A stretch of DNA of 64,000 nucleotides, taken from assembly GCA_950295325.1 (NCBI GenBank), contig OX485806.1:24426001-24490000 (forward strand), in the 5' to 3' direction. Origin of the DNA: Polytrichum commune (taxonomy: Eukaryota; Streptophyta; Polytrichopsida; Polytrichales; Polytrichaceae). Numbering within the stretch: the stretch's first letter is position 1; each line of letters starts with the position of its first letter. Positions 2,805 through 42,439 of the stretch are shown here, in pieces. The notes beneath the pieces are model-generated. The model did not search any database. It saw nothing but the letters and a program-made list of their open reading frames with translations, and was not told where the DNA came from. Both the position numbers and the translations under genes were made by a program.

Positions 2805-2837
2805 CACTATAAGAAACCCGCGTTTTTTGTTACGTCC
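2805..2837 (+). repeat. Left terminal inverted repeat of the CACTA element
   Basis: Begins CACTATAAGAAACCCG. It pairs with 43792-43824 on the opposite strand with three mismatches in 33 positions. The flanking AAT at 2802-2804 is one half of the target duplication. Confidence 0.93.
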
Positions 2838-4250
2838 CTGCTCATGTCCTGGGAGACATTGTGACATCCGGGTTTACATCCTTCGGACGTACTAACGCGT
2901 GTAACACGCTGTAACGCGCGGGGACATCACAAAAAACGTTTGGACATCCGTGTAACACTGATGATTTTTGGAGATTTTGGGGGGATGAGAACTGTGCCCA
3001 CTGGGCGCCACGTCAAGGACACCTAAGCAGTAGAATGGCGGGCAGTGCCACATGGCCGCCAATGTCATCCTATCCAATGGTGACGTGGAATATGACGTGG
3101 CGTCTGACATGGACCCAGGAAAGAGTGACGTGGCAGACCACGTCAGCATTCATTTGAGTGGTTTTTTTCCCACATTGACGTTCGCGAGTACGTCACCAGA
3201 AACATCGTTGTGCTTTCAAAGACGTCCCAAGATGACGTGGAGATGTCACGCTTGATGTCTACGATAACGCGGCCTTGGTTTTGATGCTCATTTCGTTGAA
3301 CATCGCCATGTCCCTGAGGACATGGCGATGGACATGAGGATGTCCTTGATTGCGTTGCCCATCCGTGGTCGTGGGCATTGTGGGTGTCATGACAGACGTC
3401 ACAGAGAACGTTTGCGTGTCTGTAGTGACATCTCAGCGTGCATGTTATTGCTGACGATGTGTATGTGATGGTGTTTTGGCGGATGCGATACATGCTTTGG
3501 GAGACAGGAGTAATGTTTATGGGGACGTCAATGTCACCGCGCGGATGTCCGGCCAGAGACGTTCTAAACTTAAGCAGGGCGTCCAAGAAAACATCTCGCG
3601 GGATTTTAGGGATGTTATGCAAAACACTGCCATTACTCGACAATCGGTCCCTCAAAACATGTTCACGTCACGTCTTACATGTTATAAAAACATTTGCAAA
3701 GACATGCAGTTGTTGTGTAAAACATTTCAACGTAATTTGGCAATTATTATGGAAGACATGCTCATGTTCACAGAGTCATCGACGAAAACATGAACACCTC
3801 ACGTCCAACGCGGGGAACGAATATAATCATCATCACACAGTCGATCCGGGATACATCCCCGTGTCACAAATTGGTAGCTCTAGAAGACGTCATCATAATC
3901 ACGTAGACGCCGCATAAAATATCCCCACATCATGTTAAACATGCGCCATGAACATCATCCTCATCGCAGACTCGTTCAATAGAACACCCCCCTGTTAGTT
4001 AGAAAATGTCATAAGAAACATCATATTAATGATGCAATCCTCCGGGATAACATTCCCACGCCGTGCAGGACGAATTATACAAGACATCCGCCAACATACC
4101 TAAAGTCTTTGTGGCATACTGACGTCAACATTCAGACGTCCTCTGCGACGTCCCCACAGACTCTTGAGACATCCCTACGTCATGCCCTACATGTCCAACG
4201 ACACATCTCTACTCTAATGCACTATTCTCACGAAGCACCAAAATAACCCG
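2838..4250. repeat. Left subterminal region of the CACTA: GACGTC/GACATCC repeats
   Basis: No convincing gene. The stretch is densely packed with short motifs of the form GACGTC, GACATCC, GATGTCC and TGACGTGG in both orientations. In CACTA elements such subterminal arrays are the binding sites of the TNPA-type protein. A 13-bp perfect stem with a 4-base loop lies at 3301-3330 (CATCGCCATGTCC, CTGA, then the complement). The ORFs that can be drawn here follow the repeats and are not supported as genes. Confidence 0.75.
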
Positions 4251-4514
4251 TTCCAGAGTTTTTGTTGCAGGCCCTTTCGTTCATTTCTTCTTTGCCGCCT
4301 CTGCTCTTGTTGAGGTGCCTACCTGCACTTGCAAAATGAAGGCATGTTATGGATGATGTCTTTGCACAAGATATCATCATTTAGGAATAATGTAGTTTTC
4401 CCCATTTTCACGACACCAAAGGGTTCAGGGTTCAACCTACCCAAACACAAAGATCCAAAATGAAATGTTATGTCAAACAAGTCTGCACATGGAGCGGGTT
4501 CAGAGTTTTCTAAC

Positions 4515-7500
4515 CTTCTCAGGTGGTTTCCCCTGTTTGGACACTCCTGCTGGCTTTGTTGCATCAGGCTTTGTTGCTTTCGATGCAACTGTTGGCTTCT
4601 GTGTGTCGCTCTTCCCCGGTTTAGAAAGTCCTGCAGGCTTAAATGTCCTTGATAGAGACTTCAGCGGGTGTAAGCATCCTTGGGTGGCTCCACTAGGAAC
4701 CACCTAGGAAAAGTTGCAGGAAATAGAAGGTGGACGACCATTAAAGTTATTTTCATGTAGGAAATAATTAGTATTTTTCCTATTGGCTCTTTTAACTGAC
4801 ACAACCTTATCATCCTTGCTGTCAAAAGGGAGTCCCGCCTATATCAATTGGTAAGCTAGTATGTTCGAAAAAAATCCTAAGGACCTCATGGTCCCGCCGA
4901 AACTCGGTGACGAAAATAGCAACTACATGCGGCTCACTAGCGAAGAATGGTGATAGGGTAGGGTTATTGGGCGAGGACTTAGGGGCTCTGCTTGCGCGCG
5001 AGAGTTCGAGCGAGCGGCAACCTTCAGGTTGTACACTGATGTCATTTGATGTTGTTTTTTTTGCGTTGTTTCCAGAAACTCATTGGGTTTAGAGTTGGCT
5101 ATGGCGAAACAGGTTGGTTTTGGCAATTTCAGATTTCAAATGTACATGTCTATCTATTTTGGACCAGACGGTGATTTCTTCATCTCCACTTATGCATCTT
5201 CTGTTATCATTCCAGGATGAATCCATTCTAGATCTCCACTATTTCATCAATGTCCAAGGTTTGAGAGGAGAAGGGAGGGAGGTGAAGTCTTTGCAAGAGG
5301 GTGACGTCTCTAATGAGGAGATTTGTGAGATTTTTGGACCTCGTAAGGATAAGAATGGCTGGAAGGTCAATGAGAAGCCTAGTAGGGAGTTCCAAGAATC
5401 AGTGGTGAATTTGTACTCCAGAGTGACCCTCAGAGATCAAGTCCTCAATGACCAATTGACCTTGGAGTGGGCACGAGCCATTGTAGCAGAGAACAAGGGC
5501 ATCCCTGTGAATTGGGCATCTTTTGCAGTGCACCTACACAAAAAAAGGGTGTCTTTGGAGAATGTCAAAAAGGCCAAGAAATTGGCCAAGGAGGGCACCA
5601 GTTCCGACTCCCTCAATGCGGCAACTAGATCATGGCCAGAGCTACCTCCAGGGAGTTCCATTGCCCAACTCCCTGTTTCTATTGTAGGAGCTGGTTCACA
5701 ACTCCTTTCCCCTGCCCTAAAACCTAAGTCTACTGGTTCTTTGCTTGGACCTGATAGGAAGGGTAGTTTTCGGACACCTGTGAATCGTTCTCTAATGTTG
5801 CGGGCAACTAAAGGGAAGGTCGAATCTGGGGTGTCTATTAAGCGTGGTAGCTTTAGTGTTCTAAATACAAGGGTGAAGGCAAGGATGGCCCCTGATCTAA
5901 CAGTTGGTGGAACAGAGGACCTCATTAGTAGACTACATGAGTTACTTCTTTCTAAGCAAAAATCATTGTTACAGTCAAAGGAACGGCTCCGTGCCAGTAG
6001 TGACACTAAATCTTATATTGAGATGGACTTCAAGAGGGCAAAACTCATGCTAGATGTTCTTAAAGGTCTCCATACTGATGCGGAATGTGAACTTTCTAGA
6101 GCTCGTGTTGCTTTGCAAGATGCACTTTCATTTGAGTGTAATCCCATTCCTACTCCGGAAGCATCTTTTGTGGTGGAAGAAACTGTTGAGGCATTTTCAT
6201 CAATTAATGCACATGAGGAAGATTCTGTTGCTCAATTGCAACAAAGATTGCGTTGTGAGGAGCGGAATGTCCAATCATCTCTTTTAAAACTTTCCGCAGC
6301 TGAGAAAGATTTTATTCTCAAACAAAATGAACTAGCCAGTTGTGAAGAGGGATATGGGGAGGAAGTAGAACATCAGGTTGTTCTAGAAAGGATGTTGACA
6401 CTCATTGCTGACTATTTGACTAAGTTGAAGGGTGGCATTTTATTAACCACCCACCCTGAACCTATTGGTAGGGCTGATAGGACTAAGTCCCAATGTGGTC
6501 AACTGAATGTTCAAGATTGTATCTTTTGCAAAGAAAGTTTCCATGTTAATGATATATGTGTATCCTCATGCGGTCACTGCTACCACCCTTGGTGCCTTGG
6601 TATGCACATTAGCACGTCCAACAAGTGCAAGTTACAAAGCTGTCAACAGGAATTTGATTTGCAATGGCGATTGTCATTTGGATTTGTAATTCCAAAGACT
6701 GGCGATCATCAACTCCACTCTGCAGCTATGTCTGGTGAGCCCTACCCCTAATTGATTGTTCGACGATAATTTTAGATCTTTACATTGTTTTTATGGCATT
6801 TTGTGCACAAGATATAAGACATGAGGTCAAAATATGTTTGCATCATTCTAAGTTACGCTTACCAAATGTTTGTATGTACCCTTGCTGCATTTATGAACTT
6901 AGATGATAAAATTTCAAGTTCTTTGATGTTCCAGGGGTGCATCATACATATGTATGTTATGCCTTGCTACTTGAATTTGATTCATATTATTTTTGTGCGC
7001 ATGTAGAATGAGTTCTACATTCCACCTCCTTAGGCTATGGATATCTACTCAGCTCTACACATTGTTGCAATCTATTCATTTATCTTGTTATTTACTGTGG
7101 GGTGGGTGTTCACATTGAATGTAGGTGTCTATTAGGAAGCACTACCATATTTCCTTAGTCCCCTACCCCACTAGGATTTGTTGTACTTACAAATCTTCCA
7201 GTATGTACAACTATGTTTTCAATTCCTTCTCCCAGGCAACTAAAAAGTTGCCTTCATTTGCAACCTTGCAAGTTTTAGGAACCAGGACCAAAAACTTAGG
7301 CCCACTTCAATGCCAGGAAGTGTGGAAATACCAATCATACCATTCTCAAGAGTCAAGAACTAGCTCATTGACTGTTATGCCTATTTCCCTACCCCTTTGC
7401 TTCCATTCCTACCCCCATTGTCATCCAGGAACCAATTTCCTATTGTCCTTGCCTGTCAACATAGCATTTTCTTCCATTCCTGCCATTTTTTTGAATCATG

Positions 7501-10500
7501 TCACAATTTCCTAGGGTCCTTCAGTACTAGGAACCTATTTAATATCAATAGGAATATTGTTTGGAAACAGGAAGTGATCCCAGGTTCATTTGGATGCCAT
7601 GACTATGTGGTATTAATTCCTAGATTGACTTTGGACCAGGATATCTCATGATTCCTGATTTAAGGACATGATTTCTAGCTTCCTGATTTAAGGACATGAA
7701 CTCAGGGTTGCAAAAATCATGAATGCAGAAATCAGGACTAGATTGTTTAAGGACCTAGATTGTTTTTGGACCAGGACTATGTTTTTGCATTCCTGATTCC
7801 TATATAAGTCCTTGATCTTGGCTGCAGATGTCCATTCAGACTTTGGAGCTTCCACCACTATTTTTCAAGGGTTGGGCGACACAAACTCAACAATACCTGA
7901 GCCATCATGCTCTTTGAGGACCCATACATCAGCAAGTCAAGACAACTTCATTCCTAGAAGTGATGCATGTGCAGAAGAATATGCAGAGGTGGCCTCAAAG
8001 AAATGCCATCAACCAGCGATTTCACAGAAATCATCATTGGTGGAAGCTGACAATGGAAATTCGCCAGGGTTAGACACAACTAGCCTTCAATGCATCATTT
8101 GCTTTGAGAAATGCAAACCCATGGCTACATTGGAGGTGAGTGTTTGGGTTGATTACACCTGTCATTGTATAAAACCATACATGTTTTATTTGAACAACTC
8201 AATATTGGATTATAGGTCTAATGTTGGTCTCCAAAATTATCTATTAATACTCCTTTGCATGGGTTGTGATGCAGCCATGTGGTCATACTTGTGTTTGCAC
8301 AACGTGTGCAAAAGACCTACTTTTGTGTCCAACTTGCTGTGACCTCATATCAGGATCAAAGCGTGCTAACCCGAAACCAATAGGTACTATGGTGGGTCTA
8401 GGGAATGCTTTCAATGCAAGTGTTCAACCGGTGGTTAGGAGGACCATTAGATTTCCAACCAATAAACGCGCTAAAATTGCTAGTCAAGGACGTAGTGGGA
8501 TGGAAATCCATGGATTCAAAGAGCCAGATTTTGATTTTGACTATGATGAGTCTAATTCTGAAGATGAATTGGCTATATTGGAGACCCCTACTGGTTCAGG
8601 GCAAAACAGACCTAGAAGAGCATCTTGTGGTAGTGGAAATAGTGTACTTTTGGGTTTAAATGATACGTATACTGATAGTAGTGATGATGATGAGGAGAGA
8701 GGTTGTCCTAGTGATCCCAAACCAAACCAGGAAACAAATTACACCAGCAATTGTTTGGAAGACAAGTTGGATAAGTATACAGATGCCTTAGATTCAAAGG
8801 AGAAGATCTCTAACTCATCCTTGGATGTTCATGACCTTCCAGCCTGCACCTCTGTAGATATTCAGTCTGAGTCTGATCAAATTGTTAAATCACATGACAA
8901 CATCCCTCATGTGAAAAGGAAAAACCCTACAATGCCAGGTAATTTTGCGAAAAGAGTGACTAGAACTGAGGGTCCAGCTGAGGACCCTTCTGCTTTCCTA
9001 AGTAAACAAGGGGGCCAAAAACCAGTTGCCAACAAAGAGGTTATGAAGTTGTTGGCTGGCAGTCCTTCTAAGTCCGCCTCCGCTCGTCATGACAATAGGT
9101 CCAGACGAGGTGGGAGGGGCAAGTGATGATTAGAGGTGCTTTTTTTCACTTAGCATTATGGAAATAAAAATTGAGTGTTCCTTGCATTCGTTATTTAAGT
9201 GAACTTATGGTTACTCATTGTATATCGAGTGATTATGCATCAATTATCATCTACTTGTTACACGTACTACATAAGCACATGTAGACCTAGTTGTTCATTT
9301 ATAACATTCCAGGGACAATGATTACGTAGTTAGTTGTTTTATTTGATTGTCAATGATTAGGACAAGGTTTAGGCTACTTGGGAAATGATTACACTTGGAA
9401 ATCATACATGTGGCCCATCCTCATGATTTCAGTTCCTTATTGGCACAAATGATTTAAACTGACACATGTCCTAGTACTTCTAATGTTTTCATGCAGCTTC
9501 TAGAGACTCCCCTCCAATCCAAGCAGTCAAGTTGGCCATACGTGCTGGTGCATTTCCCACTCCTCTCTCTACTCTTACCCACAACCTTACCTTATTGCAT
9601 GAGCTGCAGTTTGAAAGTCTTCATAGCTTAGTTCTGCACCTCTCTTTTCTAAGCTACCACATGCTAGTCAGTTGCCAGGTATTGAGGATTGGTTGCACTG
9701 GTGTAGGGATTGGGTTTAGATTTGTTGTAGCAGATTTCTATGGAGGGGAGTTGGAGGTGGTTTCGAGATGTTGTGGGTCTACCAGGAAAGGGGTTGTTTC
9801 CTTCTCCCAACATGGGGAAACGCTATGCCTCTAAGAAGGAATGCGAGAAATTATGGGGAAAGCGCAAGAGCAACAACGGGTTTCGCTACACTACCCATGA
9901 GGATGAGGCATTGAAGACCAGGATCGAGACCCTCATTCGCCAAGTGTACCAGCGCAAGCAGACTCAGAATTCTGACATCAACCTTACCTTTGCACTTGGA
10001 GTGCTTGCAGAGCGCAAGGGATTTAGCATCAATTGGGCGAAATTTGCTGAAAGTGTGCACAGGAGGAAGGGAAGTTTCGTACCACTTCCTGAGTATAAAA
10101 ATTCCTCTTCCAGCCAAGATGGGGAGGAAGAGGAGGAAGAGGAGGATGAGGAAGAGGAGGACAGTGAAGATACAGATGAGGACTTGGAGTTGGAGGAAGA
10201 GGAGGATCAGGAGGAGGAGGATCAGGAGGATAAGGATCAGGAGGAGAAGGATCAGGAGGAGAAGGATCAAGAGGAGAAGGATCAAGAGGAGAAGGAGGAA
10301 GTGGATCAGAAAGACAAGGAGGAGGAAGTGGAGGGAGGGAAGAAAGATGCAACTAAAGCAGCTGACAATGGGTTGCATGAAGGCAACTCCACTCAAGAAC
10401 AAGACCATGTAGGGGATGAAGCACTTGTACTTGATCATGTAGCAGTTAATGAGCACCAGGTTGTTGAAGAGGTTATTGTGCAACCTGCACCTACAATTCA

Positions 10501-13500
10501 TGGTGGCCCTGATGCGGAACACCTCCAATCACCTAGCCAGGGAGTTGTGTGTCAAGGTGCACCTACAGTTTGCATTGGAGAGGAGCAACTGGGGGCAGAA
10601 GTAGGTGGTGAGTGTCCCTTTGATGACAAGGTAGCAACACAATACGAGCTCAACACACCTCCAGACAAAGAGAAGCTAGTGGGAGAGCTAAACCCTGATG
10701 GTCTGGTCCACTCTGATGTTGCGCCAGTAGCTGGTCAATCTGCCACTCCACCTGTTGTGTCTGAAGGGTTGCAAATGCCACCTACACTTGCAACAGATAT
10801 TGATGACAATGGCTTGATTGTCATGGAGAGGGCAGTGAGGCTGAAGGAAGTGAGATTGAGAGAGGACCAAGTGAAATTCAAGAGAGAACTCTTGGAATTC
10901 AAAATTGGACAGTTAGCATTGAAAAGGAAATTTTTGCAAGTAGGATCCCCTGATAGTGCAGAGGAAGAGGGGAGAGCTTTCCATTTGGGTGAGGGAGCCA
11001 AGTTTGCAAAATCCAGCTTGGCCACTCAAATCAGTGACATCAATGGGCTTGTGCTGAAGAAAAGACAAACTGTGAAGGTTTGCACAGAAGAGTTGGAAGC
11101 CATGCAGACAAAAGTCTGCGATCTGCTCTACAAAATGAACAATGCTGAAGGTCGTCTACATTCTGCCAAGGTCCAAGTCGTAGGTTTAGAGTCCATTGAT
11201 GGAAATGATGTGCACAAGTTTGGATTGGCAGAAGTGCAGGATTCAATTCTTGAATTGGAGAAGATATGCCATGAAATTGGGGAAGTCAGGTTTGAACTTA
11301 GAACTAAGGTTGAACAACACAAGGGTGAATTGACAAAGCTCCATCACTATGAAGCTTGCCTTCTTCGGTTGAAGCAGAAAACATGTGTGCAAATGGAAGT
11401 CGAACAAGGTATGTGCTTAACCTTTCTTTTTATAGCAAGGCATTGTTCTTGAAGCATGGTTTTGTTGAATTGAGTTCTTGCTGGTAGGTTTTGAGGAAAT
11501 TTATATGCAGGGGTCCTTGTTGTCTCACGTTTTTGGTTTTTTGCATACAAGATAAGACTTACTAATGTACATGGATGGTGGCATTGCCAGGCGTGCAATC
11601 TGGATAAGCTTACCACATTCAATTGCACTTGAGGCCAACATATCCTAAAGAGGTAAGTTTCAGCACCCCTCACATTGCGCAATTTTTTGGTTTATATTTC
11701 ATTTATTATGTTTTATTGAGGTATTAGACAGTGTTGGCTCCTCACTACCAATGCTGGATTGTTGAAATTGACACTCTGTTTGTGTGTCTGACACTCAGGA
11801 GGTCAAGAACTTCACCCTTGGAACAACAAAGTACCATCCACCCTGTACACATAGGAAATAGATGGTACCATGTGGTAATTGGATGGTCCAATTTTGGCAA
11901 CGTTACTTTTTTGAGTGGTATAGCATTTACTAGTACTTCTATTTTAGAGGAAGGGTTTTTTTTTATATACCAACAACAAGCAATGACAAATATGTAGATT
12001 CCTTTCAAATGTGCAAAGACCATATAGATTGTGTGAACATTTTCTTCTCCCTTGTGTTGTTGTTTTCGTCATGCAATCTACAACCAATCGGTAGCTACTA
12101 ACTGAGATGCCTGATTCAAGAATGGAGTGAACACATGCATTTTTATTTTCGTTGTACTAGAATATATAGGGTTGAATGTTGTGTATAGTATTGAGCCCTA
12201 CAAATATTGCTGATGTTGAAAACAAAACTTTTGGAGGAATAAGACATGTATGAGGTTGTCAGTTCGCTCTCCCTACTTTAAGCCATAAGCTACAAGGTTG
12301 CTTGACTGTATCTGTCTAATTAACTCTGGTTAAGAAATTTTTGCCTTATATCTTCTATATAGCATGTCTACATCTTAAGCTTAGTGTTCCATAGGTGGTG
12401 TACGAAGTAAGCCAAACAATGCAATGGGAAGCAGGCCTTAGTGGATATAGTTATAATTAAGTGCCTTGCATGCTTAGGGATTTTCCGATGGAGTACACAT
12501 AATCTTCAAATTTGGCTCAATGTCACTTTATATCATATGATAGCTACAATGTTAAATTTATTGTGAGTGTCCTTGAAAATATCTATTGCCCAAGCCCGTA
12601 TGCAAACAAAACGAACATATTCAAAATACCAACAACTCAGTTTCATCAAAATGTGTGGAAACTTGTTACAAATAGTCAGGGATGGTATGGAAATAAGAAG
12701 GCAACAAAAAACACTTGTGCTTTATTGACCATGAACTTGCTTTGTATTCACAGGTGCAGACCCTAAACCGCTGTCCACAATTAAAAATTAATGTCCAGAA
12801 TTTACAATCATTGACTGCCTCAACATAATAAGAATGAGAAGGGGCACATCAAAATTTCAACCCGAACCCATAGCACATTGTAGGCTAATGAAATGAATTG
12901 AATTTGGAACCAAAAGTCCACCAGTGGGATGGTAGCACATTTGAAATGAGGAATATATTTGGTACAAGAGGCACTATTGCACTTAGGTAGAACTGATCAT
13001 CTAAATCACTAGTACACATCACCCTAGCTACAAACTCCACGTTGTTAGATGATTGTCTCAAGTTGCACTGAGCCTGGCTTCTATGAGTTCATGAGCAGCT
13101 GCAGGGAGAGTGTACACCTAACCAACACACACAAGGAATAATTAGGATGAAACCTTTAATGCCCCACAACATCATGATCACCACAACATGGAATCAAAGG
13201 ATGGTTTTGCATAACAACCCATCCTCCTATCCCATCAAGCTAAAATGTTGAGCGCAAACAATCACATGGCATTATATTGGAAAACTAAAGCCCGCAGGTA
13301 TCATATAATTCCCTTTTGCCTAACAGAACTAACTTCAATAACTTGCTATTTAAATAAGTTTTAAGATGTGCATACTAAATGAAGTGGGGCTTGTATGGAT
13401 TGTATGTACCTGTGTCCCCTCCCTCCCACCTTTTTGTCGATGCCGAGCCGGCAACATTGCAAACTTTGCAGCAATTACCAAATGGGAATAGATATAAGCA

Positions 13501-16500
13501 GGACCAGCATCGCAGAGTACATAAGATCTCATACTCCTTCCTTTTTGCTTATAGTACCTGCCTACCACAATTTGCTCTCCCTTGTACACCTTTTGGCCCC
13601 AACAATCTTCCTTGGATTCTTCCTCGACTGCTTGAAGAGTCACTTCAGTAATTAAAATCCAAAAATCTGCATCCTCGGAGTTTCCCTCATCAGCAACAAC
13701 TGCAAAATGATCCCCAACCTCCAAGCTAGCAGCTATCGCCTCCCTGTCACCCTCCCCAATGACATCAACATGTTCCACATCTGCGCGCACGTCATCTGTG
13801 TTGCAAGGCTCAATCCTAATAAGTTTATAAGGCTCCACATAGTCATCATTATCACAAGGGCCATCACCTCCATCTTGACAGAAGCTACAGAAACATGATA
13901 GTGTCCGGACCTGCAAGGAAATCATATCCAATCCTACACTACGAACCTGGTGAAATGATCTAGTTCCCTCCACAGTGCGGGCATTAAATTGATCTGCACG
14001 CACAACATCAGTGGTGGCCACCTCATGAAAATATCGTCTGACATCCCTACGCACATTGGAATACCCAGCGTATTGCCGACCCATATATTGCCTAAGGTAA
14101 GCAACTGCATCACTCGCATTGTGAAGCCTAATACCATCAGGTTTCACCTGCTCTGCCCGAAGAGCTTGTTTGATTGTTGCTCCTGCCCCATCCCAACGTC
14201 CCTTGCCGTGCCCAGAGCCAAAGTGATTCCATTGCATAGCACACCCATTAGGTAGGTCTGGGCTTCTGGTTAGCGTAGGATAGCGGGTCACAAAAAAAAG
14301 GGACCTTGCGCACTTAAATTGAGAAGAGCATCCATCAGAGAAAACTATGTGCTCCACTGGTAGTGCATGGCCAGACTCCCCCAAAAAAAGCCAATGCAAA
14401 CCAAAACAATATTGCACAAATAAATTATCATGGGTTTTGTCATCACTCACATAGAAGTGATACTCAGTAAGTAATTTGGACTTGACATCCACTTCATCCC
14501 AGCCCGGATCAATTCGAAAGGTAATGTGCACTAGTATTGTCACCTGGAATGACTGCCAATGTTGGGATTGCACCTCGTTTTGCCATTGAAAGGAATAGTT
14601 TTCAGCAAAGTCAATAACAGATAGGATTTGATCACTGGACAAGTTTTCCAGGCAGGATTTAAATTGACCATCTTGCCATTTTGCCTCAAAATTGTGTACC
14701 ACAAACTCTGCAAGCTTGGGTTTAAGGAAGGATATGAATTCAGAAGGAGGAGTGGTCTTGTGCTCCAATCTAAGAGCATGGCGATCACCACCTTCAGAAT
14801 TCTGGCCTACAAAAACATTCTCAAACTTCCTCCAGGGTATTAGTGTTGTGGAATTGGGGTCCACCTCATGAGGACACAATTGCAATTTCCACACACCACA
14901 ATCATGACAATTTCCTCTTATGCACTGAAGCTTGTGGAAGTCCATGGACTCTAGTTTTGGACAAAGCACCAAATCGCACAGGGCCCTTACACCTTCAACT
15001 GTAGATGAGGAAGCCCAACATGGTGTTTCGGGAGCACGTGCACCACACACGACACAATTACAGCTACAGGATTGGTGCAAGGTTCGTCGTCTCATGTTGT
15101 TGAAGCCTTCTTTCAATTCTGCAATCTGCACATGATAGCGGCAGCAACAAGAATTGAATTCCTGCAACCTCTTCACATACCAAGGCTTCAATGTCTCAAA
15201 TATGCGCAGGCCAACTTCCACATTTGGATTTTCCTCTTTGAATCGAGTGTACAAAGAAAGCTGCAAAAACATAGAGCATTTCAAATATATTAATGGATGT
15301 TCACACTACACAAAACATTTGTGAATTCAATAACTAAAGCATGAAACACATAAATATAGATTAGGAATCAGGACTGGGGTGTACCATCTGGAAATCTAGC
15401 ATTCAGGAACTTGACTGTCCAGGAAAGAGGTGGTACGTCAGGAAAAATGCGGATAATCAGGAAAAATACTATCAAAAAGGGAATCCTTAGGAACAAGGTT
15501 AGTCATCAGGAAACATAGGAATGTAGAACACAAATCATCATGAATGGGGTGTATCAATTTGAAATGTAGCATTGAGGATCAGGACAAAGTACAAAAGAGA
15601 TGTTTCTGCAGGACAAATGCGACTCATCAGGAACCATAGATAGAAGAAGTAGGAATCATTAAGAATGTGGCCAATCATCAGGAAACATAGGAATGAAGGG
15701 TAGGAATCATAAGAAAATCCTAAAACATTGAAACCACTACAGGAACAATATCACATGAAAAGGATACTTCGTCTCCAGCACAGTAATTGGATTGAAGGCT
15801 TGGGAACCAAAATTAGAGGCTTAAGGAAAATTATATATCCACAGGAACCACCAGGAAATAATCTAAACTCTGCAAACCTTTATAGGATCCAAGTCACTAG
15901 GAAAGATCCAAGTCACTAGGAAAGATCCAAATAAAACTGTTCCAAGATTGAGGGGACCTCCTCAGTAAGCCTACAAATCTTTAGGAGCCTTAAGGACTAA
16001 ATTGTGAATGGATTAGAACCCCAGGAACCGCCGTAAAAAATGGCAAGACCTTGGACATCACAGTAGATCACAATCTAATGTTGCAAAAATGCAAGGAAGC
16101 CCCTGATGAAACGAAATCATTCCATGATTATTCTAAATTTCCTAAATCAAGGAGGACCACATCATGATGAAGAGAACCCTAATCTTAGACCCGACAAAAA
16201 CAAGGACCCTCAAACACCAGCCTATGAGTGAGGTAAAGTCCAACAAACCCTTTACGACTTCCTAAAATGAGCCCAAACAGTAGGAGCTACATGTGTGTGA
16301 AGGTGGAAACAATAATTTTGCAATGGTGCACAGAATGAACATCACAAGGGCACTGGACCTTAGCAAAGACACCAAACTAACACAAGCCTTGTCAAGAATG
16401 GAAAAAAAAATGAAAGCACTCAAAAAAAACTCCTAGGGGAGTGTTGTCATTTCAAGCCTAAAAAAACATAAACCAATAATGACACCACTCCCTAAAATTT

Positions 16501-19500
16501 CCAATTGCCCTTAACATTGTGCATGTTTCATTATACTAGCATTCTAATGAATATAGAAGAGGGCCATGGCAAGGTGTACCTGAGATTCCATGAGGTGGTG
16601 GGTTGCATGCGTCTCCCACATTCCACTGTCGATTCGTTTCCTCACAACATCCTTTCTGTTAGGACTTACCCTTGAATTAAGGCACCAGAATTCAACGATG
16701 AGTTCACGCACATTTGAAGGCGTGGCATCTATACGCTTTGATTTTCCAGAAAGAGCCCACAAAGACCTATCTACACGGGAATCTAAACTCAACCGCCTCA
16801 CTATCCCAACATGGAAATTCCTCCTATGGATGCCAGTGAGAAGGCTTGTCTGCCTCATATTTGTATTCCTACTGGCAACCATAGGAATGATAACATTTCT
16901 AGCCCTTTGATCATCATTGGAGTGACAACCTTTGATTTGTTGCCACCCCCTAGCAATATTCCCTACAGTTTCCCAAGCATGTTCCATTTCAGAGTAGTTG
17001 GGGAGGACATTTTGCCAAACAACATGTTTCAATATTTTGGGAATCAATGACCTTTGATATTGTAGACCCCTTCCTGCTGTTTCTTGATACCATTGAAGGG
17101 CAAAATTCTCTGCCATCCTAGACGTTGACCTCTCCACATCAATGTTGCTATCCTCAGACCCTTGGGAGTCTAGTTCCTCGCACAGAACTCTCAGACCTTC
17201 AGACCTTCTCTGTCTACACCGTCTTTGCCGTTCATTTTGAGCCTGTCTTTTCTGAGACACTTCTAATTCTCTAGCAAGACGCTCTCATGTACCTTGACCT
17301 GGCATTTTTCTATTCCGTTGGTTTGCCATCTAATTGGAGGTCAATGAATAACCCTATAACATGCATGTCTCACTAACACGACTCAAAGAGCAAGCTGATG
17401 TAAATGACAAAGGAGGAGAACTTTTGGAGGTTGCAAACCCATGGATACTCTGAGAAGACGAGGAAGAATTAGAAGGTGCCGATGAGCCAGTGCATTCGCA
17501 AGACGAAACACTCTCGGATGAGACTCCCTCTTCATGCCTTACATTCGAACCCTTGAAGAAATCTGTAATGAGTGTCTGGGAGTGTTTTACACCCAAAACC
17601 TGCCTCGGTCTCTCAAATCCCATGACAACCCACTTCAGTCTAATGCTACACGTCTTGGCACTACCCACTGTGTTGGAGCTTCCGATCCTGAAACCACCAT
17701 AGCCGGCAAGTGAAAGGCGGCAAACATCACTTAGGAACTTTAGAAAATCGGCGGCAAAACATTCTCTCAGCAAAGTAGGTCCAGAATTTTTCGCTAACTC
17801 CATCTTATCAGTTCGTTAATGATCTAGTGACTTGGAGGAAAAGTGCTCTCAATCCGACAGCTCAGAATTAAAGTGGAAAAAGTGAGAGGTGGGAATCATG
17901 AATACCACCGTAGGAACGTTTGGCAGGAAAGTTTCCTATGCCATTCCGGGGATTCCTGAAAATTTGGCATGGAGGGCACTTTGCATGTTCACCATGTTTT
18001 TTTCCAATAGATGGCCCACTGGTTCACTAGAAGATGCCGAGGAGTAGCTTTGGGATGAGCTAAAACACAAAAATAAATCAATGTAGGTGTCCTTAATGAT
18101 GTTGCCCCCGGAAAGTTGTGTTCCTAGAGGTCAAGTGACCCTACCTATTGTTTTAGTACCTATTTTTTGCAAATAACGAGTAGGTAGCATTATTAGGTTC
18201 AGAAGTTACCATGCAAAAATAAAACCAAAGAGAATTGATATTATTTTGCATTCCTACTTGGTTCCTAAAGTTATAAGTATACACAGTTCATTCCTGAAAT
18301 TCTTTGCTAACAACCTTTTCAAGGTTGAAAACACATGGTTTTTTCTTAGTCTTTTATATGAATGGCTACACCTAAACCTAATTGACCTTAAAATGTGTTC
18401 ATAAGGAAAAAAACAATCACTTAAGATTGAAAACAAGTTTCCTAAAACTTACACTGTCAAGTGAAATTTGAGTGTGACGTTCCTAGAGGATCCACCCAAG
18501 GATGCTTCCTCCCCAGCATGTTACCTTGTTGCATTCTCAGCGTTGCACCTCCCTCTCCCCCAGGTGTTTCCATGTCCTCCTGCACCGCCAATTCATCATT
18601 ACATGAAGACACTTGTCCCAACATGCACAGTAGACATTCACATTGTGGTATGTAGAGAAGAGAAGTTACAAGCCCATGTACACTCATCCAACCTAAATGC
18701 TAATTGGCCTACTTGCAAACGTGGTAGTATGCGATACACACAATTAAATATATGAATCCATGCGCTTCATAGTCATTACACGAATGAATGAAAAAACAAA
18801 ATACTCAAAATTCACCGTCGCAAAACTGTCTTGACAACAACTCAACATTCTCCTCTTCGTGAACATGTCCATAGATGTCTTCATGGACGTCACAGAAGAC
18901 GTCACTGCGTTTCCTAGTTGATTTTGCAAACGTCTTTCTGAACATGGTGACGTCTACATGACCATCACAACACGACCTACATCAGTTTACCTTCTGGGCG
19001 AGCTCTCTAGGCGCGGGGGTATCCACAATGGCGTAGGTGTCGTCCTCTACAGCCTTGTCCACCACCTCTGGTGGTGCTGTTGCACCGGCATCTACCTCTC
19101 CGTCCATTGTGCCCCCTCCTTCGGCCTCCACCATCGAGGTCCCTCCCCCGACATCCTCCGCAGCGGCCATTTCCACCTACTTTTGCCCATGCGGATGCGA
19201 CACCCCCGACGCAGCAAGAGTTGGCGAAGGTGGCCTCGCAGTCTCTATGAGGGCCGTGGGCACTGGGGTCACCTGCAAAGCCACAAGATGAACTGTATCC
19301 TGAAGACTAGTGGATTGCGTGACAGTAGAGTCCGTGTGAGATGCCTTTCCCGCTAGGATCTCCCGGAACATGGCCTCCATGCGGGAGGTGGACTCATCTA
19401 TCTTGGTCTCCAGGCGCTTGTTGGAAGCGTCTATCTTGGCCTCTAGTCGCTCATTTGTTGCATCCATCTGGCCCTGCAGCTCAACCAACTGGATCTCCAA

Positions 19501-22500
19501 GTCCTGTACGTCCTCGTCCGGATCACCTCGCGCGCTTTCCCTCTCCTCCTGTAGTCGTTCCTCAATCTCTTCGACTATCTCAGACTCCCAAGGCTCCCGG
19601 GAATGACGCAGAGTCTACCAGCGACAAACATGCAACGATTTCATAGTCAATATTCTCGAATGTGTTTACGGAGATATACGAGGACGTCCTGAAAGACGTA
19701 ATGAGCAACGACGATGCGACGTGAGGATGTTTTCACAGACATCCTCTGACGTCTCTAACAATTCAGGAAACTTCCATGGACCCTTTGGCATGCACACAGA
19801 GTCGTATATTCTCTGCCAAACAATACGCAGTGGATCGGTCGGGAATGCTAGATTTCCTCCTACACAATAAAACAACTACTTCAGGACGATCTACACAGAC
19901 TTAGAGTCCTCTATTACAAAGTGCAGGCCAATACCAGTTTCACCACCGCAGCCTCTCGAAGTGATGCCATTTGAGTTTTGGAGTTGGAACCTTTTCCCTT
20001 TGCCACTTTCCGCATCTTCTCTGTCGTCAGTTTGGATTCCTCAGTCGCCCTCTTCCGCACAAGCCTGTTCCATTGATCATCAGAAACTTCTGGTGGCTTG
20101 CGCTCCTTCTGGTCGATCATACGGTTCAACCGGAATCGCCTGTTGATCAGTATCTTGTTCACTCTTACTCGGATGTACTCCGGTTCCATAGACTTCCGCG
20201 CCCCCTTCACCACCCAGCCTACAAACGCATGGACAACATTCCCAAAAGGGCGAGGTTACTCCGCTGGGAGAAGTATGCAACGTCACGTTCACAGTAGAGC
20301 ACCGCCATCAAGTTTTTGCGGGGCTTCCAGAAGTGTTCTCTGGGACATCTATCGACGTCATCCTGGACGTCGGCGTATGTCACCCTCAACGTGCAAACGT
20401 ACAGTTCCACAGCCTTGTGTCGACATGGACATCGTCCGGTTCACAAAGAATACAACATCCTATCCAATGTAAGTTGATGAAGGCTACTTCACAGGAAAGC
20501 CACGCATCGAATTGTACAGGAATGTCACATAATGTTACTGAAGGTAGAGAGGATGTTCGACACAGCACGAGTCAAAGGAGTTTAAATGCGAAAAGGTGGG
20601 AGGGTTTCTGGAGTGACAGTCATGTCGTACCTTGCCATAGGCATTTGAAGAATCGATCCTTTGTTGCCTCCGCTTGCTCCACAAAGTTCCCATTGGGATC
20701 CAAGTCCCTCGCCAGAGATCGAAGATCCGCGTGGAAGGCTCCCACCAATGCCCCATAAGGCTCTCCTTTCTCGTCCAAAGTGATGGGTTTTTTTTTGACT
20801 GCATGCTCGCGCTGCATCGACACCTGCCGGACGTTGCGGGGAGGAGGTGTATTCTCCTCGGACATTTCGTCGTCTTCGGTGTCCTCGTCCTCGGCATCCT
20901 CTTCCTCCTCTTCGTCGTGTTCGTTCTCGAATCCCCGGCTGCACAACAGATAGCCGATCCTTCATTACACATGAAAAACTCCAAACATAGGCAGCCCTGG
21001 CATCACCTACATTGTGGATGATGTCTGCACGTCCCGGAGAACATGAGCGTTGTCGGGTAGAGAGGGTTCCGCCTTGGGAAAGCGCTGGGCTTCTGGCTGC
21101 AACTAGATTTTATCAGACCCGTCGAATCTTCTGATCTTCAATCGAATCTTCCGGTCTTCTAGTCTTCAATTTCTTCAATTTCTTCTAATCTTCAACCTCT
21201 TTCCCGTCGACCTATCCTGTTGTGGCTCTATATGGATAAAGGGTAAGGGTAGTGTGATAAGAAACCACGGCTTCGGACGGGTAAAACGGGACGTCAGAAC
21301 ACGAGCTGACGTCCGAAAGATTGGCTCCTAAACTTTCAAACCCACGGTGACCAGCAATCGCGCCTCACCAGTGGGAACGACAGAAAACAACCTTGTGGGT
21401 GATTAATCCCACTTCGTTGTCACAAACAACCTTGTGGGTGATTAATCCCACTTCGTTGTCACACAGGAAACAAATTACGATGCAGAAATGAAATGCAACT
21501 AGCGTCCAAAACCGGCTTGGAATCACACACACAAGAAAAAGACAACGTGCCACAAGCAACCACACATTCGAGTCTTGAAGCCTTCAATTCTTTAATCTGT
21601 CCGTCTTCTATGGTCGGTCGAAGTCTCAGCTCTTCTTTTAAGAACCAACAGACTTCCCTCCACTCAAACAAGCACAAATCTTGATTGCTAACTTCCAAAA
21701 CAACAAGTGAGATCTCTCATGAATCACAAATCCCTCGTATTTTATTTCATATTCTTCTCAAAAACAACTCACACCGTGAGCTTCGAATCCACTTCTCTCT
21801 CTCTCCACTTCTCTCCCCCAATAATCACATCACATCTTTCCTTCACCACCTCTCCCTATCCATGCGAGAGATAAAGTTCTCTCTTATCCTCATCACATGG
21901 CTTCTAATCACCCATTGGTCCAAAGTAACTCAAGATAACTAAAAGACAAAAATAAACTATGAGTAAATAAAAAGGTAATCTATTTCTATCATTTGGTAAA
22001 GGTAACTAAGAGTAACTATGAGTAAACATAAAGGTAAGCAACTTCTATCCACTTCTATCTTTAGGTAATGATAACTAAAATAAACTATGAGTAAATAAAA
22101 AAAGTAATCTACTTCTATTCTTTATTATTTTTCTCCAAGACCAAGACTCACAATGCAATATTAAATACGTACACATCTATATAGTGTACGTATTTACATC
22201 ACGACAGCGTGTCCTGCCAAACGTCTAAGATCACCGTAGTGACGTCTAAAAGAAGCAGTGTCCAACATGGTGGCGTCCCCTACAGCGTCTAACCAACACC
22301 ATGACGTCCACATGGACATCTCCATGTTCTCCACCGCGATACAGGAGATGTGTGAGTCTACAACACGGGGCGACCAACTTCCAAAGACACATGTTACACT
22401 ACGGATATATGTAGAAGACACTCACTGTATCTCCTGTTCCTGCTCCGGCTCCTTCATCCGCAAAGTGGCCTTATCTTTTGCACGGGTGAGGGGTCGCACT

Positions 22501-22673
22501 TCGTGGCGGATGCCATTTCCTCTCGGCGCTGCTCGGATGTCGTGCTTGTTCTTCGTCCACCGCTCCACAACCGCCTCTACATCATCAACGTCGTCCCCAT
22601 CGCTTGCCTCGGTCTCCCACCTCGATGGTGGAGACCGACGTCGCTTCTTCGATTTGGCGTGAGCGTTTGGCAT
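4515..22673 (-). CDS. TNPA-like (Ptta/En/Spm, Transposase_24-type) CACTA gene, interrupted by a 13.8-kb transposon
   Basis: Minus-strand gene, exons predicted by matching phase: 22673-22426, 20938-20631, 20218-19935, 19614-18991, 18579-18508 and 4670-4515, the last two being one exon split by the inner transposon. The product begins Lys/Arg-rich, then an acidic run (about 20930-20850). A central block (KPPEVSDDQWNRLV, then a Lys-rich stretch and GSNSKTQMA) matches the plant Transposase_24/En-Spm family. A coiled coil with EAKID/ETKID repeats follows, then a Pro/Lys-rich tail (KPAGLSK, KPAGVSK). In CACTAs this second protein is known to bind subterminal repeats. Odd points: an in-frame TAG at 19179-19177 and the insertion in the tail exon. 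Extra exons may lie at 19862-19750 and in 4319-4480. Family call fairly sure; exon edges are predictions. Confidence 0.7.
4672..4700 (+). repeat. Left terminal inverted repeat of the inner 13.8-kb transposon
   Basis: AAGCATCCTTGGGTGG followed by TCC and CTAGGAAC with two mismatches to the other end (18479-18507 on the minus strand). The stretch from here to 5100 has no gene and shows AGGAA words. Confidence 0.85.
5101..9126 (+). CDS. Transposon-borne coiled-coil protein with two RING fingers
   Basis: Predicted exons 5101-5112, 5216-6734, 7828-8135 and 8275-9126; all introns GT-AG, all phases match, 896 codons plus stop. The short first exon (MAKQ) is the weakest part. Residues about 36-116 form a domain shared with the next gene (ends GIPVNWASFAVHLHKKR). 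A long helical, coiled-coil region spans about 250-430. RING 1 (about 438-480) starts CIFC and has CGHCYHPWC, a C3H2C3 pattern with an unusual C-x4-C last pair. RING 2 (about 599-640) starts CIICFEKC and has PCGHTCVCTTC and CPTC, close to RING-HC E3 ligases. An acidic/Ser-rich tail ends SRRGGRGK. RING domains usually recruit E2 ubiquitin enzymes; a ubiquitin- or SUMO-linked role in transposition is inference. It could also be a captured host gene, but the paralogue next door argues that it belongs to the element. Confidence 0.8.
9740..11607 (+). CDS. Acidic coiled-coil paralogue of the RING protein, transposon-borne
   Basis: Exon 9740-11408, intron 11409-11590, last exon 11591-11607, giving about 561 residues; ATG starts at 9740 or 9812 (MGKRYASKK) are both possible. 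Residues about 31-110 align without gaps with the N-terminal domain of the upstream gene (shared E.C, G.RK..NG, then GFSINWAKFAESVHRRK). A long Glu/Asp tract with DQEEK repeats follows (about 10120-10340). A Gln/Val/Pro-rich linker comes next, then a coiled-coil region (about 10830-11390) resembling that of the first gene. There is no RING. It probably arose by duplication inside the transposon and lost or never had the C-terminal half. Its function is unknown; a DNA-binding or scaffold partner of the transposase is a guess. Confidence 0.75.
11608..13086. other. Intergenic space between convergent genes of the inner transposon
   Basis: Mostly AT-rich and non-coding. It should hold the 3' ends of the coiled-coil gene and of the oppositely directed transposase gene. 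The ORFs at 11731-11997 and 12512-12766 have no recognisable domain and no support. A possible last exon of the transposase (minus, ending near 13087, acceptor CTGCAG) lies at the right edge. Confidence 0.5.
13087..17803 (-). CDS. DDE-like transposase of an unusual family (SDD-SDG-GKGxxDG type), multi-exon
   Basis: Exon 1 about 17803-17370 (Ser-rich); exon 2 about 17340-16580 (basic start, QNERQRRCRQRR, then WYQETAGRG); intron 16579-15261; main exon 15260 to about 13410; a short last exon near 13087 is possible. The exon 2/3 join gives LMESQ then LSLYTRFKEENPNVEVG in phase. The main exon has a Cys-rich zinc-binding-like part (CSCNCVVCG, CIRGNCHDCGVW), then the likely catalytic core: YVSDDKTHD (about 14450), FSDGCSSQFK (about 14340) and HFGSGHGKGRWDGAGATIK (about 14200). 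From memory, proteins with this motif order are common in animal repeats; that is not checked. Exon 2 has an in-frame TGA near 17284 in what looks like an ER/LARE helix, so the copy may be damaged. Transposition of the surrounding element is the likely role. Confidence 0.7.
15300..16560. repeat. Transposase intron rich in CAGGAA/GGAAC words
   Basis: This intron carries many loosely spaced copies of ATCAGGAA, AGGAAC and CATAGGAATG. The same words occur in the intron of the RING gene (about 7560-7800, complement strand TTCCTGA and TCCTGATT) and near the right end (about 17890-17960). There is no coding evidence. Distribution through introns and toward both ends resembles transposase-binding repeats rather than a simple satellite. 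Confidence 0.5.
17804..18478. other. Gene-free right end of the inner transposon
   Basis: AT-rich, with AGGAA/TTCCT words at about 17905-17960, 18105-18125 and 18255-18300. It lies upstream of the minus-strand transposase gene, so its promoter should be here, but no TATA box stands out. Confidence 0.45.
18479..18507 (-). repeat. Right terminal inverted repeat of the inner 13.8-kb transposon
   Basis: Complement begins AAGCATCCTTGGGTGG and pairs with 4672-4700. The neighbouring base 18508 is the last base of codon AGG (Arg) in the interrupted TNPA-like exon. Confidence 0.85.
20939..22425 (-). other. Large intron of the TNPA-like gene with tandem repeats and a possible small insertion
   Basis: No supported exon. 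It holds a 37-bp direct repeat in two copies (about 21390-21463, ending CACTTCGTTGTCACA), a region of TCTTC/TTCAATC repeats (about 21120-21190), three copies of a unit near 60 bp with AACTATGAGTAAA (about 21955-22120), and a hairpin AATACGTACAC with its complement (22163-22195). The change from GACGTC-rich to AT-rich sequence between about 21360 and 22195 suggests another small inserted element, but no target duplication was found. Confidence 0.45.
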
Positions 22674-25600
22674 TCTCACGCGTCTGCGCGGCCACCCAAC
22701 AAAGGCCTCCCCCTGCTTCGGCTAAGGCCAGGAGCAGTACACACAGAATTTAGAGGGATAGCTAGATACACATACTCAATACACAACAATCTATATAAGT
22801 CTTGCGAAACAGAAAGTAGAATGAATAGAACCGAATCAGTGCGGCGGTAGCCCAAATGCTGTCATTGAAATGAATTGAATATCATTGGGGACCAATTGCT
22901 CGGGAAAGCATTCAAGGTAATTGATGTATAGCATGTGTAGAAGAATGGCCGCCTGACACAAATGTCCTTGACAGATAAAAAAAAACTCTGAATTTCAAAA
23001 TTTGGAAAGTCAAAAGCCAAAGGTGAGATGAATCGAGAAAGCTTTCTTGTTTGTGCTGCATCAAAAAAATTCAAATGCCTTTTGCCCTCTGAGCTAATTT
23101 GTCCATCGGTCAGGGGATATGTGTTTCGGGACCGACTTATAAACCTCGCACACCGAGGCGGGTTTCTTATCAAACACCATTTTTACAGCGACAATGAACC
23201 TCTATACTCTAGTCACAGACTGGAAATAAAAAGTCACTAGCACTATATCTCGAAAGTTTCTACAGTCTTGTGGCACACAAAAATTAGAAAATTATCTCTT
23301 GAAATCTGCGAGGAGATGTTCCAAATTAAGTTTTCCGAAACAACATCATAGCAAACCCAATCATAAACAGCACGAAATGATAAACAACACTCGTAGATTT
23401 GCCAAGTTTAAGCCTCACCTCACGTAGTTGTTCGCCTGCACAAGAATTCTTGAACCGGCACTCAACACATACTGAATTTACCAGATGAGTCACACATAAA
23501 TTTCTCCGAGCACCAGCACGGACTTCTTGCATATTGGTTGCATTGACCTAAAAAAACTACAGAGCTAGCATGGTGATTCATGACAAAAACCAAAGAATAA
23601 CAAAAAGAAGGCGAGCATAATAATTCATGGAACATGGTGACCATGCAGCTCATCCAGTTAAACTCACCTAGTAGAGAGTAATAGTACTGACTACCACCCG
23701 TAATCCCACTCCTCATGCAAGCTCAAAAGAGAACTTCAAGTTGCCAGACTCTTTGTCGGTCCTTAAAGTGTAAGTCCTCTCCTTTTAAGAATAGCCACCT
23801 TTCTGGAAACCCCAAAGCTTGCAAGACTCATGTGGAAAATGCAAAGTGCCGAATACGCAAGAGATGATGATGACGATTCAGACTGACAACATCCTCTGAC
23901 ATCTAGCCGCCACAACACTGATGTTCTTCTTATTGTTCAATATGCTTCACTTACAAAATGGTAAAAGAAAAGCTGCAAATATATATCTAGAAATTACTAC
24001 TTGGACCTTATAATAGCGATTAGCGAGGACAGTGTCATCAGCAAGAAGAATTCTGCCTAATTTTTTTGTAGAACTTTCCTTAAACTCATATATGAAGACT
24101 GAAGGAACGAGATGATTCTTCACCTCACATAGTAGTCGCCTGCACAACATGGTGACGTCCCTGAGGACATCAGTGCAACATTACATAATACGTCGACACG
24201 TCTTTCGAAACACATAAAGCACCCACGCCCTAAACCAACCTTGCTGTTACTGATGGTGAGGCCCACCAAATCATGGGCTAACATCATTTTGCAAATTAGA
24301 CTGACTGATTGGTAGGGTAGACACCACATCAACCTAACTGGGTTGAAGTAAGAAATGCCCACCATTTCTATGCCCATAAACCAATGCGGCGCAACTCCGA
24401 ATTGACTCACAACATACGCATGACTTTCCCCATAACAGATGGCGAAGCCCACTAAATCATTTTGCAAATCACAGACTGGCTAATCCTAAGGAGATGCATG
24501 CAAATGGGAGAGAGAAACACTTTCTGGAAACCCCAAAGCTTGCAAGACTCACCTGGAAAATGCAAAGACCCCTAATTGTTCAGGGTTAAAAAAATACCTT
24601 GCCCTAGTTGACAAGATGCAGCAAATGGTGACTGCAGGAGATCCGCAACGCCATGGCTGCTCCTTGTCAACCTCTCCGATGTGATGATCCAGCACATCTT
24701 TTGTGCTTGCCACAATTCTTGACTCTACATTGACATCCACTGTTTTTCCTTTTTCCACCTCTTGACACCTAGAGGCATAACATGGTGACATCCCTGAGGA
24801 CATCCCCGCAACACTACACAATACGGCGACACGTCTTTCTGAACATATAAAGCACCCTTCTTTGTCTATGTACAGGACTGTAACTACGTCGTGGAGCTAA
24901 TACCCGAGATGTGCAAGATGAGTTTTGGACACACTTTTGCCTAATGGTAGAAATATCGAGTCAGGATTGTAAGTGACCCTGCTAGTTTATATACACAGAA
25001 GTTGCTGTAAGAGGGTATTTTACCCTCACAACTACCAGAATTTCAAGAGCCACTCATAAATAGGGAGACCTAGAGGCATAACATGGTGACGTCCCTGAGG
25101 ACAGCCCTGCAACATTACAGAATACGTCGACACGTCAATCGAAACATATAAAGCTCCCACGCCCTAAAACTGCCAGACGTCTCCCACAGCGTCCGGATCG
25201 CGACAGATGAAAGTAGCAAACTGGCAACAATCACGGCTAAGGCAGGAGGTTATAAGGGGTGAATTCACAAAAAGGCCCACAGATGGAACACGTCTCCAAG
25301 CTGTGCACGGCATGCTACATGCGGCAAACCCTAACCGAACCCTTAAGCTGTCTTCAAGAAAAGGGGACCGTGCCGCATAACATGGTGACGTCCCCGACTG
25401 CACTAAAACATTACACAAAACGTGGACATGTCTAAAAGCCCTACCTTGCTCGCAACATCGGCCTTCAAAAGCAACGACGCCTCCGACAGCGTCAAGAATG
25501 GCAGGATAAAGTAACATGACCCTAAACCCTTCACAAATGAATTGTTGCTGGCTCATACATCAGTACAGAATTCTAAGCCTGGGTGCTACATTCCACAATT

Positions 25601-26117
25601 GCACCTGTGAGTTACCCAACACTACAATTGTTATTTCCAAAAACTAAGAAGGTCACAGGAGTACACTAAGAGCTGACATTCGCATGCAAATTCGAGAGAA
25701 CAAGCTGGAAACACATTTTGAAACTAACGAGCGTTGGGGAGCCATGGTGTGCGTTTCACATACCTTCCTCAACGAGGCCGACTGTCCAGCTCCTCGGAGG
25801 AGCGCCGCTGCTGGAGAGCTCCGACCTGGAGCAAGAAACCGCCGCCCCCTAATACCAGATCGCCGAATGCGGGAGTGCCTGGAGCCGAGTGCCGAATGCG
25901 GCATCTCCCGAGGTGACGCGAAGACGTCTCTGGGGTTAGGTGCAGGGAACTAATACCCCTGCCGAGAGCCAATAAGCCGACCCCCTAGGACCCATAACCG
26001 CGTCTAAGTGACCTACCAAGCTATACATGTGCACTGACGTGTCTGGGCATGCACTAGCAACGCCGCCAAGGTCTTAACTCTCGGTACCTGCAGAACTTGT
26101 AGGGTTTGCAGTGAATT
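22674..26117. promoter_or_regulatory. Central gene-poor region between divergent CACTA genes, with repeated promoter-like units
   Basis: Lies between the minus-strand TNPA-like gene and the plus-strand genes. Four copies of a unit of about 90 bp occur at 24144-24239, 24775-24862, 25076-25165 and 25372-25445. Each starts AACATGGTGACRTCCC, and the first three contain CATATAAAGC or CACATAAAGC, a TATA-like box. A second repeat (TTTCTGGAAACCCCAAAGC) is present at about 23801 and 24521. Further 5' exons of the TNPA-like gene may be here (for example minus 25930-25760, ending at a GTATGT donor), but I cannot prove them. Bidirectional promoter function is inferred from position. Confidence 0.45.
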
Positions 26118-42395: not shown

Positions 42396-42439
42396 ATAGT
42401 GGTGTCTTTTTTTTGTCGTAGTAACATTCTGTACTGGCC

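Follow-up and report, generated by a model that had tools for sequence, protein, structure and literature searches.

VANC21 of the Arabidopsis transposon VANDAL21 binds same-orientation arrays of the motif YAGTATTAY in introns and upstream parts of its element, and the bound arrays occur in the introns of both VANC21 and VANB21 (passages of PMC5735166). As of 2015, Chapaev was described as the sole group of transposable elements known to have RING fingers, with RAG1 similar to it (excerpt of PMC4411706). Sola elements are described in sections of PMC10741241 as having a DDD transposase, 4-bp target-site duplications (TSDs) and a size of mostly 2-9 kb, with some above 15 kb. They are present in the moss Physcomitrella and uncommon in flowering plants (PMC10741241, same sections). 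The TSD of Sola2 is likewise given as 4 bp (excerpt of PMC3627910). Here, we describe an element at positions 4666-18513 of a 64,000-nucleotide stretch of the Polytrichum commune genome (contig OX485806.1, positions 24,426,001 to 24,490,000), which will be called the window. The element encodes a transposase and two accessory proteins, A1 and A2. The A1 gene (5201-9126) has three exons and encodes 897 residues when counted from 5201 up to the stop. An N-domain of some 110 residues is followed by coiled-coil-like stretches and two RING fingers, RING1 and RING2. The accessory RING gene is almost certainly an integral part of this transposon lineage.

The element moves as a whole

Ten further copies were fetched from the 408-Mb genome; five were complete and the other five were not complete at both ends within the sequence fetched. 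Besides the window copy, four complete copies were found at 99.0-99.8% identity, one of which has its alignment split in two by an insertion of about 1.8 kb, and a fifth was found at 84-92% identity in blocks. Matches to the transposase, A1 and A2 are present in all six complete copies. When GGG...CCC is taken as the element ends, the window copy has the 4-bp TSD CAGC, and the TSDs are perfect and all different in the six (CAGC, ATAC, TCCG, TTGG, TTAT and ATCT). These borders are not due to chance, since the matching bases also form the ends of five other complete copies, each with a perfect TSD of its own. The inverted repeats reported in an earlier note on this DNA are real, but the borders it gave, 4672 and 18507, were dropped because the ends of the other copies are 6 nt further out on each side. 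The corrected arms are 35 nt long and 89% complementary.

Because complete copies were recovered end to end with different perfect TSDs, the unit moves as a whole, and the near-identity between copies points to recent mobility. As read from its copies, then, the whole unit is mobile and has been so recently. The earlier note had claimed that the unit moved as one and had advised looking for other copies with the same gene set and reading their borders and target sites; in the source genome, complete copies were found at other sites with their own 4-bp TSDs and all three genes. The right end of the window element has only 16 matches in the genome. For 13 of them a transposase match is found within some 5 kb, for two it is 36 and 68 kb away, and the remaining one is 6 kb from an A2 match.

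The RING gene is linked to the transposase across the genome

The genome was queried with the transposase, A1, A2 and the accessory protein of a diverged element, and the best 68 of 148, 83 of 144, 77 of 215 and 92 of 122 candidates, respectively, were scored; all copy counts from these searches are lower bounds. Transposase matches formed 62 loci after merging by script and 63 by hand, with two adjacent copies taken as separate. Manual joining of accessory pieces gave 76 loci; A2 was excluded where it could be distinguished, and some pieces consisting only of an N-domain may be A2.

A convergent (tail to tail) accessory gene was found at 19, 41, 45 and 51 of the 63 transposase loci within 5, 10, 20 and 40 kb, respectively. 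Random placement (1000 trials) gave means of 0.04, 0.06, 0.12 and 0.20 and maxima of 1, 2, 2 and 3 at the same distances. Accessory genes in a non-convergent orientation were seen at no locus within 5 kb and at two within 10-40 kb. Partners were present at 13 of the 15 loci of the window family (at least 87% identity) and at 38 of the 48 others (at most 50%), and the linkage extends down to about 40% transposase identity. The window family has two loci with no partner, at 27.47 and 39.44 Mb of C7; there, accessory matches lie 74 kb off and in the other orientation. The earlier note had treated the accessory genes as part of the transposon and allowed that transposases lacking them at all other loci would turn them into captured passengers. 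The convergent partner at 51 of 63 loci sides with the former.

The RING gene is conserved in diverged elements and under selection

Of the three diverged elements that were read, D1 (L031/L032) and D3 (L033/L034) were chosen since the A1 search had matched them, and D2 (L035) since it had not. All three encode an N-domain and RING1, in one open frame in D1 and D2 and, in the A1 gene of D3 (L033:1970-3496), in two frames broken near 3038. Some accessory misses in the genome searches are therefore a matter of sensitivity, because D2 was missed by the search and has the gene. RING1 has the spacing C-x2-C..C-x-H-x2-H-x2-C..C-x4-C, and in an alignment of the window family with D1 and D2 (23-25% identity) its ligands C440, C443, C457, H459, H462, C465, C476 and C481 are invariant. 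Several N-domain positions are also among the invariant columns. The RING2 ligands are complete in the window copy and in D3, where RING2 is interrupted by an intron just before CGH, at the same place as in the window. This second finger resembles the rings of the ubiquitin ligases cIAP (best E 4.2e-6), MEX3C and XIAP in the PDB. D3 also has an A2-like frame. The N-domains of A1 and A2 are identical at 31 of 107 positions (E = 2e-12), in keeping with the earlier proposal that the two proteins are paralogous. A RING was not seen in A2, which perhaps has further exons beyond 11408. As its predicted proteins stand, the window family is one in which the RING gene additionally has a second RING and a RING-less paralogue.

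The ratio of nonsynonymous to synonymous substitution rates (dN/dS) was calculated for the window copy against five copies, with one match per gene and copy and with stop codons skipped; dS in A1 exon 1 was 0.26-0.41. For A1 exon 1, dN/dS was 0.23-0.27, with 0.05-0.08 in the N-domain and 0.12-0.24 in RING1 (dS there was up to 0.81), and for A1 exon 2 it was 0.19-0.33. The transposase gave 0.13-0.18 in exon 3, 0.24-0.30 in exon 2 and 0.47-1.13, or weak constraint, in the possible exon 1. Judged by these ratios, the RING gene is under purifying selection at the protein level, little behind the transposase core.

Motif arrays in introns and near the ends

The element contains 66 copies of the hexamer YAGGAA, and the remaining 50 kb of the window contain 34. 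In the 6.4 kb of non-coding element DNA it was counted 53 times, as against a mean of 8.8 and a maximum of 18 in 500 dinucleotide shuffles and an expectation of 19.6 under a trinucleotide model. This amounts to 8.25 per kb compared to 0.68 outside the element. Besides the arrays in two introns and the subterminal motifs (Table 1), the four remaining non-coding blocks contain 0, 0, 0 and 1. The terminal motifs point inwards, with four of five at the left end on the plus strand and eight of ten at the right end on the minus strand. In five diverged copies, 34/46, 32/41, 23/32, 7/22 and 14/37 of the aligned YAGGAA sites were identical, while 6-mers of the same composition were kept at 52%, 52%, 47%, 25% and 24% (one-sided P of 0.003, 0.0008, 0.006, 0.32 and 0.065). 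Conservation was thus significant in three of the five.

Other families have enriched words of their own. In D1 these are TAGTAC (12 vs 2.9 expected) and AGTACA (14 vs 3.9), with shuffle maxima of 9 and 9, and they sit near both ends and in introns of both genes, among other places. In D3 they are AGTACT and CAAGGA/AAGGAA. Beyond this genome, a scan of genome contigs with alignment A3 found only L001 (JAAEPJ010000558.1), and the same type of scan with A1 gave no lead. L001 is a 4,028-bp contig of a bacterial metagenome-assembled genome with a 690-aa frame for a distant transposase relative, and it is probably eukaryotic contamination. A repeated motif, GTACGTCCAACAC, flanks its transposase gene on both sides.

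What the RING gene may do

We inferred a motif-targeted mechanism because the layout of the arrays resembles that of the arrays bound by VANC21. The N-domain of A1, of A2 or of both would bind the short motif specific to the family (YAGGAA in this case) and so coat the element. The RING would recruit a ubiquitin-conjugating enzyme and mark either a silencing protein of the host or the transposase complex itself. As an outcome, the element would escape silencing or tune its transposition. The full reading, in which an autonomous cut-and-paste transposon with the marks of Sola keeps a convergent RING gene in its lineage for motif-targeted escape from silencing or for the tuning of transposition, has in our judgment an even chance of being right. 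That motif-targeted counter-silencing is the accessory gene's job is a narrower proposal, drawn by analogy; we make it tentatively and put it short of an even chance.

A number of observations weigh against this reading. With regard to linkage, 12 of the 63 transposase loci and 25 of the 76 accessory loci have no partner within 40 kb, and the counts overstate the number of independent cases (the 51 partnered loci are not 51 separate events) because related copies are not independent. Reading 8-9 kb downstream of four unpartnered accessory genes revealed no transposase. With regard to the protein, the earlier note had seen two RING fingers in A1; eight ligands are indeed present in each, but both fall under the Pfam curated cut-off (24.7 vs 27 and 13.6 vs 27.3 bits), and the C-x4-C spacing of the last ligand pair in RING1 is unusual. 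In D1 and D2, neither A2 nor RING2 was seen. Constraint is looser in A1 exon 3 (dN/dS of 0.27-0.49) and in A2 (0.48-0.50), and the near-identical copies differ in A1 exon 1 at two to three nonsynonymous and zero to two synonymous sites, which are too few to judge. With regard to the motif, the word YAGGAA was selected after its enrichment had been seen, its conservation was non-significant in two of the five copies (7/22, P 0.32; 14/37, P 0.065), and the three positive copies, which are about equally distant from the window copy, may be non-independent. Finally, the accessory gene is absent from the 4 kb of L001. It may be the transposase by itself that reads the motifs, since L001 has a motif without this gene.

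The unpartnered loci could be explained by decayed copies, large insertions or domesticated genes. The four accessory genes read downstream lie at G000:C7:458742-460106, C4:55506127-55507492, C1:62320655-62321893 and C5:36453466-36454731, and encode an N-domain and RING1 with no inner stops. They are candidates for domestication or for decayed elements.

Another explanation is that the RING protein is part of the transposition machine or regulates it, by helping to assemble the transposase on the ends or by controlling transposase turnover through ubiquitin, with no role against silencing. We regard this as possible, at an appreciable but minor probability. The terminal motifs face inwards at both ends and the gene accompanies the transposase at 51 of 63 loci, as a part of the machine might. 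RINGs are also found inside Chapaev transposases and RAG1 (excerpt of PMC4411706), the latter being a recombinase. On the other hand, 16 and 21 of the 53 motifs lie in two introns far from the ends, where they should be dispensable for end recognition, and the missing gene in L001 counts against this explanation as well.

Returning to motif-targeted counter-silencing, a broader version would have a deep plant Sola lineage encode a sequence-targeted ubiquitin ligase, whose N-domain reads a motif multiplied by each family and whose RING marks or destroys silencing proteins on its own element only. This version is doubtful. If true, it would be an independent, ubiquitin-based counterpart of VANC. 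The conserved RING gene suggests a transposon equipped with a tool of its own for dealing with the host cell. One genome keeps the gene next to the transposase in about fifty elements from several families, which would make ubiquitin handling part of the transposon's lifestyle. Together with the motif arrays, the RING gene offers a second case, open to testing and from outside the flowering plants, in which a transposon would itself encode sequence-targeted counter-silencing. As material, the genome supplies complete copies that moved recently, as well as candidate short copies of a relative, which number in the hundreds.

Classification of the element

The transposase claimed previously was borne out, with 30 relatives found. 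The closest named ones are proteins of Ceratodon purpureus, a moss, and exon 2 is 29% identical to Ceratodon P0027 over 192 residues. In the numbering of the 13353-15305 translation, D232, D324 and D372, and also D288, are at least 90% conserved in 19 relatives. The conserved aspartates sit in the motifs DFAENY, SDGCxxQFK and HGKGxxDGxGAxxK, and D232, D324 and D372 are candidates for a catalytic role. The sequence QTLITDFF in the possible exon 1 fits the PCNA-binding box pattern and could be chance.

The type of the element had been called unrecognised in the earlier note. As the leading view, an unrecognised superfamily was set aside, for the D-D-D candidates, the 4-bp TSDs and the occurrence in a moss fit the published description of Sola. 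We consider the element likely to be of the Sola type, judged against the published description. Sola2 termini are of the GRG type, and the window family, D1, D3 and the short copies described below end in GGG or GGGG.

Membership in an unnamed superfamily other than Sola is unlikely. The window transposase reached no Pfam family (one of the 19 relatives matched DUF7869, E = 3.5e-4) and no solved structure, and the flanks of D3 read as a 6-bp repeat, TATGAG, an exception to the 4-bp TSD; these points favour an unnamed superfamily. Against them stand the D-D-D candidates and the 4-bp TSDs of all six complete copies, of D1 (GAAT) and of the short copies, nine of twelve of which are perfect, together with a size and a moss occurrence that agree with the account of Sola in PMC10741241 (sections). 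Searches aimed at identity by Pfam, solved structures, Rfam and tRNA were uninformative, and scans of viral contigs with the transposase, A1, A2 and alignment A3 gave no lead.

The short copies came from the right end of D3, which was found at 39 other places at 96-99% identity (the best 40 of 644 candidates were scored). Twelve short copies with D3 ends were read. They are 745-767 bp long, have GGGG...CCCC ends and carry 4-bp TSDs, the three imperfect ones with one mismatch each. They are apparently a large and recent non-autonomous family. The short copies include L036-L047, and their larger relative is L033/L034.

Gene capture is common in plant transposons, and 25 of the 76 accessory loci, some with long open frames, have no nearby transposase; that A1 and A2 are captured host genes carried as passengers is nonetheless very improbable and was rejected, given linkage that holds between families to as low as about 40% transposase identity and nearly always in one orientation, purifying selection, the element's own motif array inside an A1 intron, and 12 A1 and 11 A2 relatives labelled only jgi or ena and none nr, ncbi or uniref (best 8000 candidates scored).

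Features and surroundings

The coordinates of the features are collected in Table 1. The CACTA element in which this element is nested has the ends CACTATAAGAAACCC at 2805 and 43824 and has TNP2, DUF4218 and DUF4216 domains at 36.8-42.4 kb. The features of CACTA (EnSpm) elements, namely CACTA ends, a 3-bp TSD and TNP2, were found in the host element and not in the nested one. The host element (2805-43824) also contains other insertions. The earlier note had described clean removal from a CACTA exon. The insertion site is within a CACTA element, and when 4666-18513 and one CAGC are excised, a minus-strand frame of more than 100 codons is open over the junction, but with the earlier borders of 4672-18507 the two open sides are mutually out of frame. 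The open frame is weak evidence in any case, because it would arise by chance one time in three.

Table 1. Features of the element and its host in the window
Feature	Position	Strand	Details
Host CACTA element	2805..43824	+	41 kb; TSD AAT; the element described here is nested inside
TSD, left copy	4662..4665		CAGC; based on TSD reading of complete copies
Left terminal inverted repeat	4666..4700	+	Starts with GGGTGTAAGCATCC; holds the first YAGGAA motif
A1 exon 1	5201..6734	+	Provisional start codon (frame open from 5093); N-domain, coiled-coil-like part, RING1
YAGGAA array, A1 intron 1	7130..7803		16 motifs in 7100-7830 (0.73 kb)
A1 exon 2	7828..8135	+	Terminates within RING2; GT-AG
A1 exon 3	8275..9126	+	Second half of RING2, acidic C-terminal part; stop at 9126; GT-AG
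A2 first exon	9740..11408	+	N-domain paralogous to A1, acidic repeat, coiled-coil-like part
Transposase exon 3	13350..15260	-	Candidate catalytic D232, D324, D372 (13353-15305 translation)
YAGGAA array, transposase intron	15362..16264		21 motifs in 15263-16577 (1.3 kb), 19 in +; composed in part of diverged repeats
Transposase exon 2	16580..17284	-	Homologous to N-terminal part of Ceratodon P0027
Possible transposase exon 1	17357..17815	-	Contains QTLITDFF; provisional junction to exon 2
Subterminal YAGGAA motifs	17816..18478		10 in 17816-18513, 8 in -
Right terminal inverted repeat	18479..18513	+	Last bases CCC
TSD, right copy	18514..18517		CAGC

Comparison with known systems

As far as the open-licence literature searched shows, a separate, conserved RING accessory gene of a transposon is undescribed, and no description of such a gene in Sola was found in that literature. 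The earlier view that known plant DNA transposons carry at most a DNA-binding helper beside the transposase was too strong, given the anti-silencing proteins of VANDAL elements (passages of PMC5735166) and the RINGs of Chapaev and RAG1 (excerpt of PMC4411706). The element resembles Sola, with the Sola2 group suspected, in its candidate D-D-D residues, 4-bp TSD, terminal inverted repeats, moss host and a size within the range (sections of PMC10741241). It differs in the conserved RING accessory gene with an N-domain and in the motif arrays of its introns.

With VANDAL and VANC it shares accessory proteins beside the transposase and family-specific short motifs in same-orientation arrays in introns and other non-coding DNA, which have grown through tandem repeats (passages of PMC5735166). 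Such family-specific arrays are present in both the window family and D1. The superfamily is a different one, those passages mention no RING for VANC, and motif binding and demethylation are conjectural here. Helitrons with VTD deubiquitinases also carry a ubiquitin-pathway module on a transposon, but in that case ubiquitin is removed and the transposon is of another class (excerpt of PMC9741609). Lastly, RAG1/Transib and Chapaev share with this element a RING in the setting of a DNA transposon, with ubiquitin-ligase activity in RAG1 (excerpt of PMC4411706). The RING lies within the transposase in those systems, whereas here it is encoded by a separate, convergent gene.

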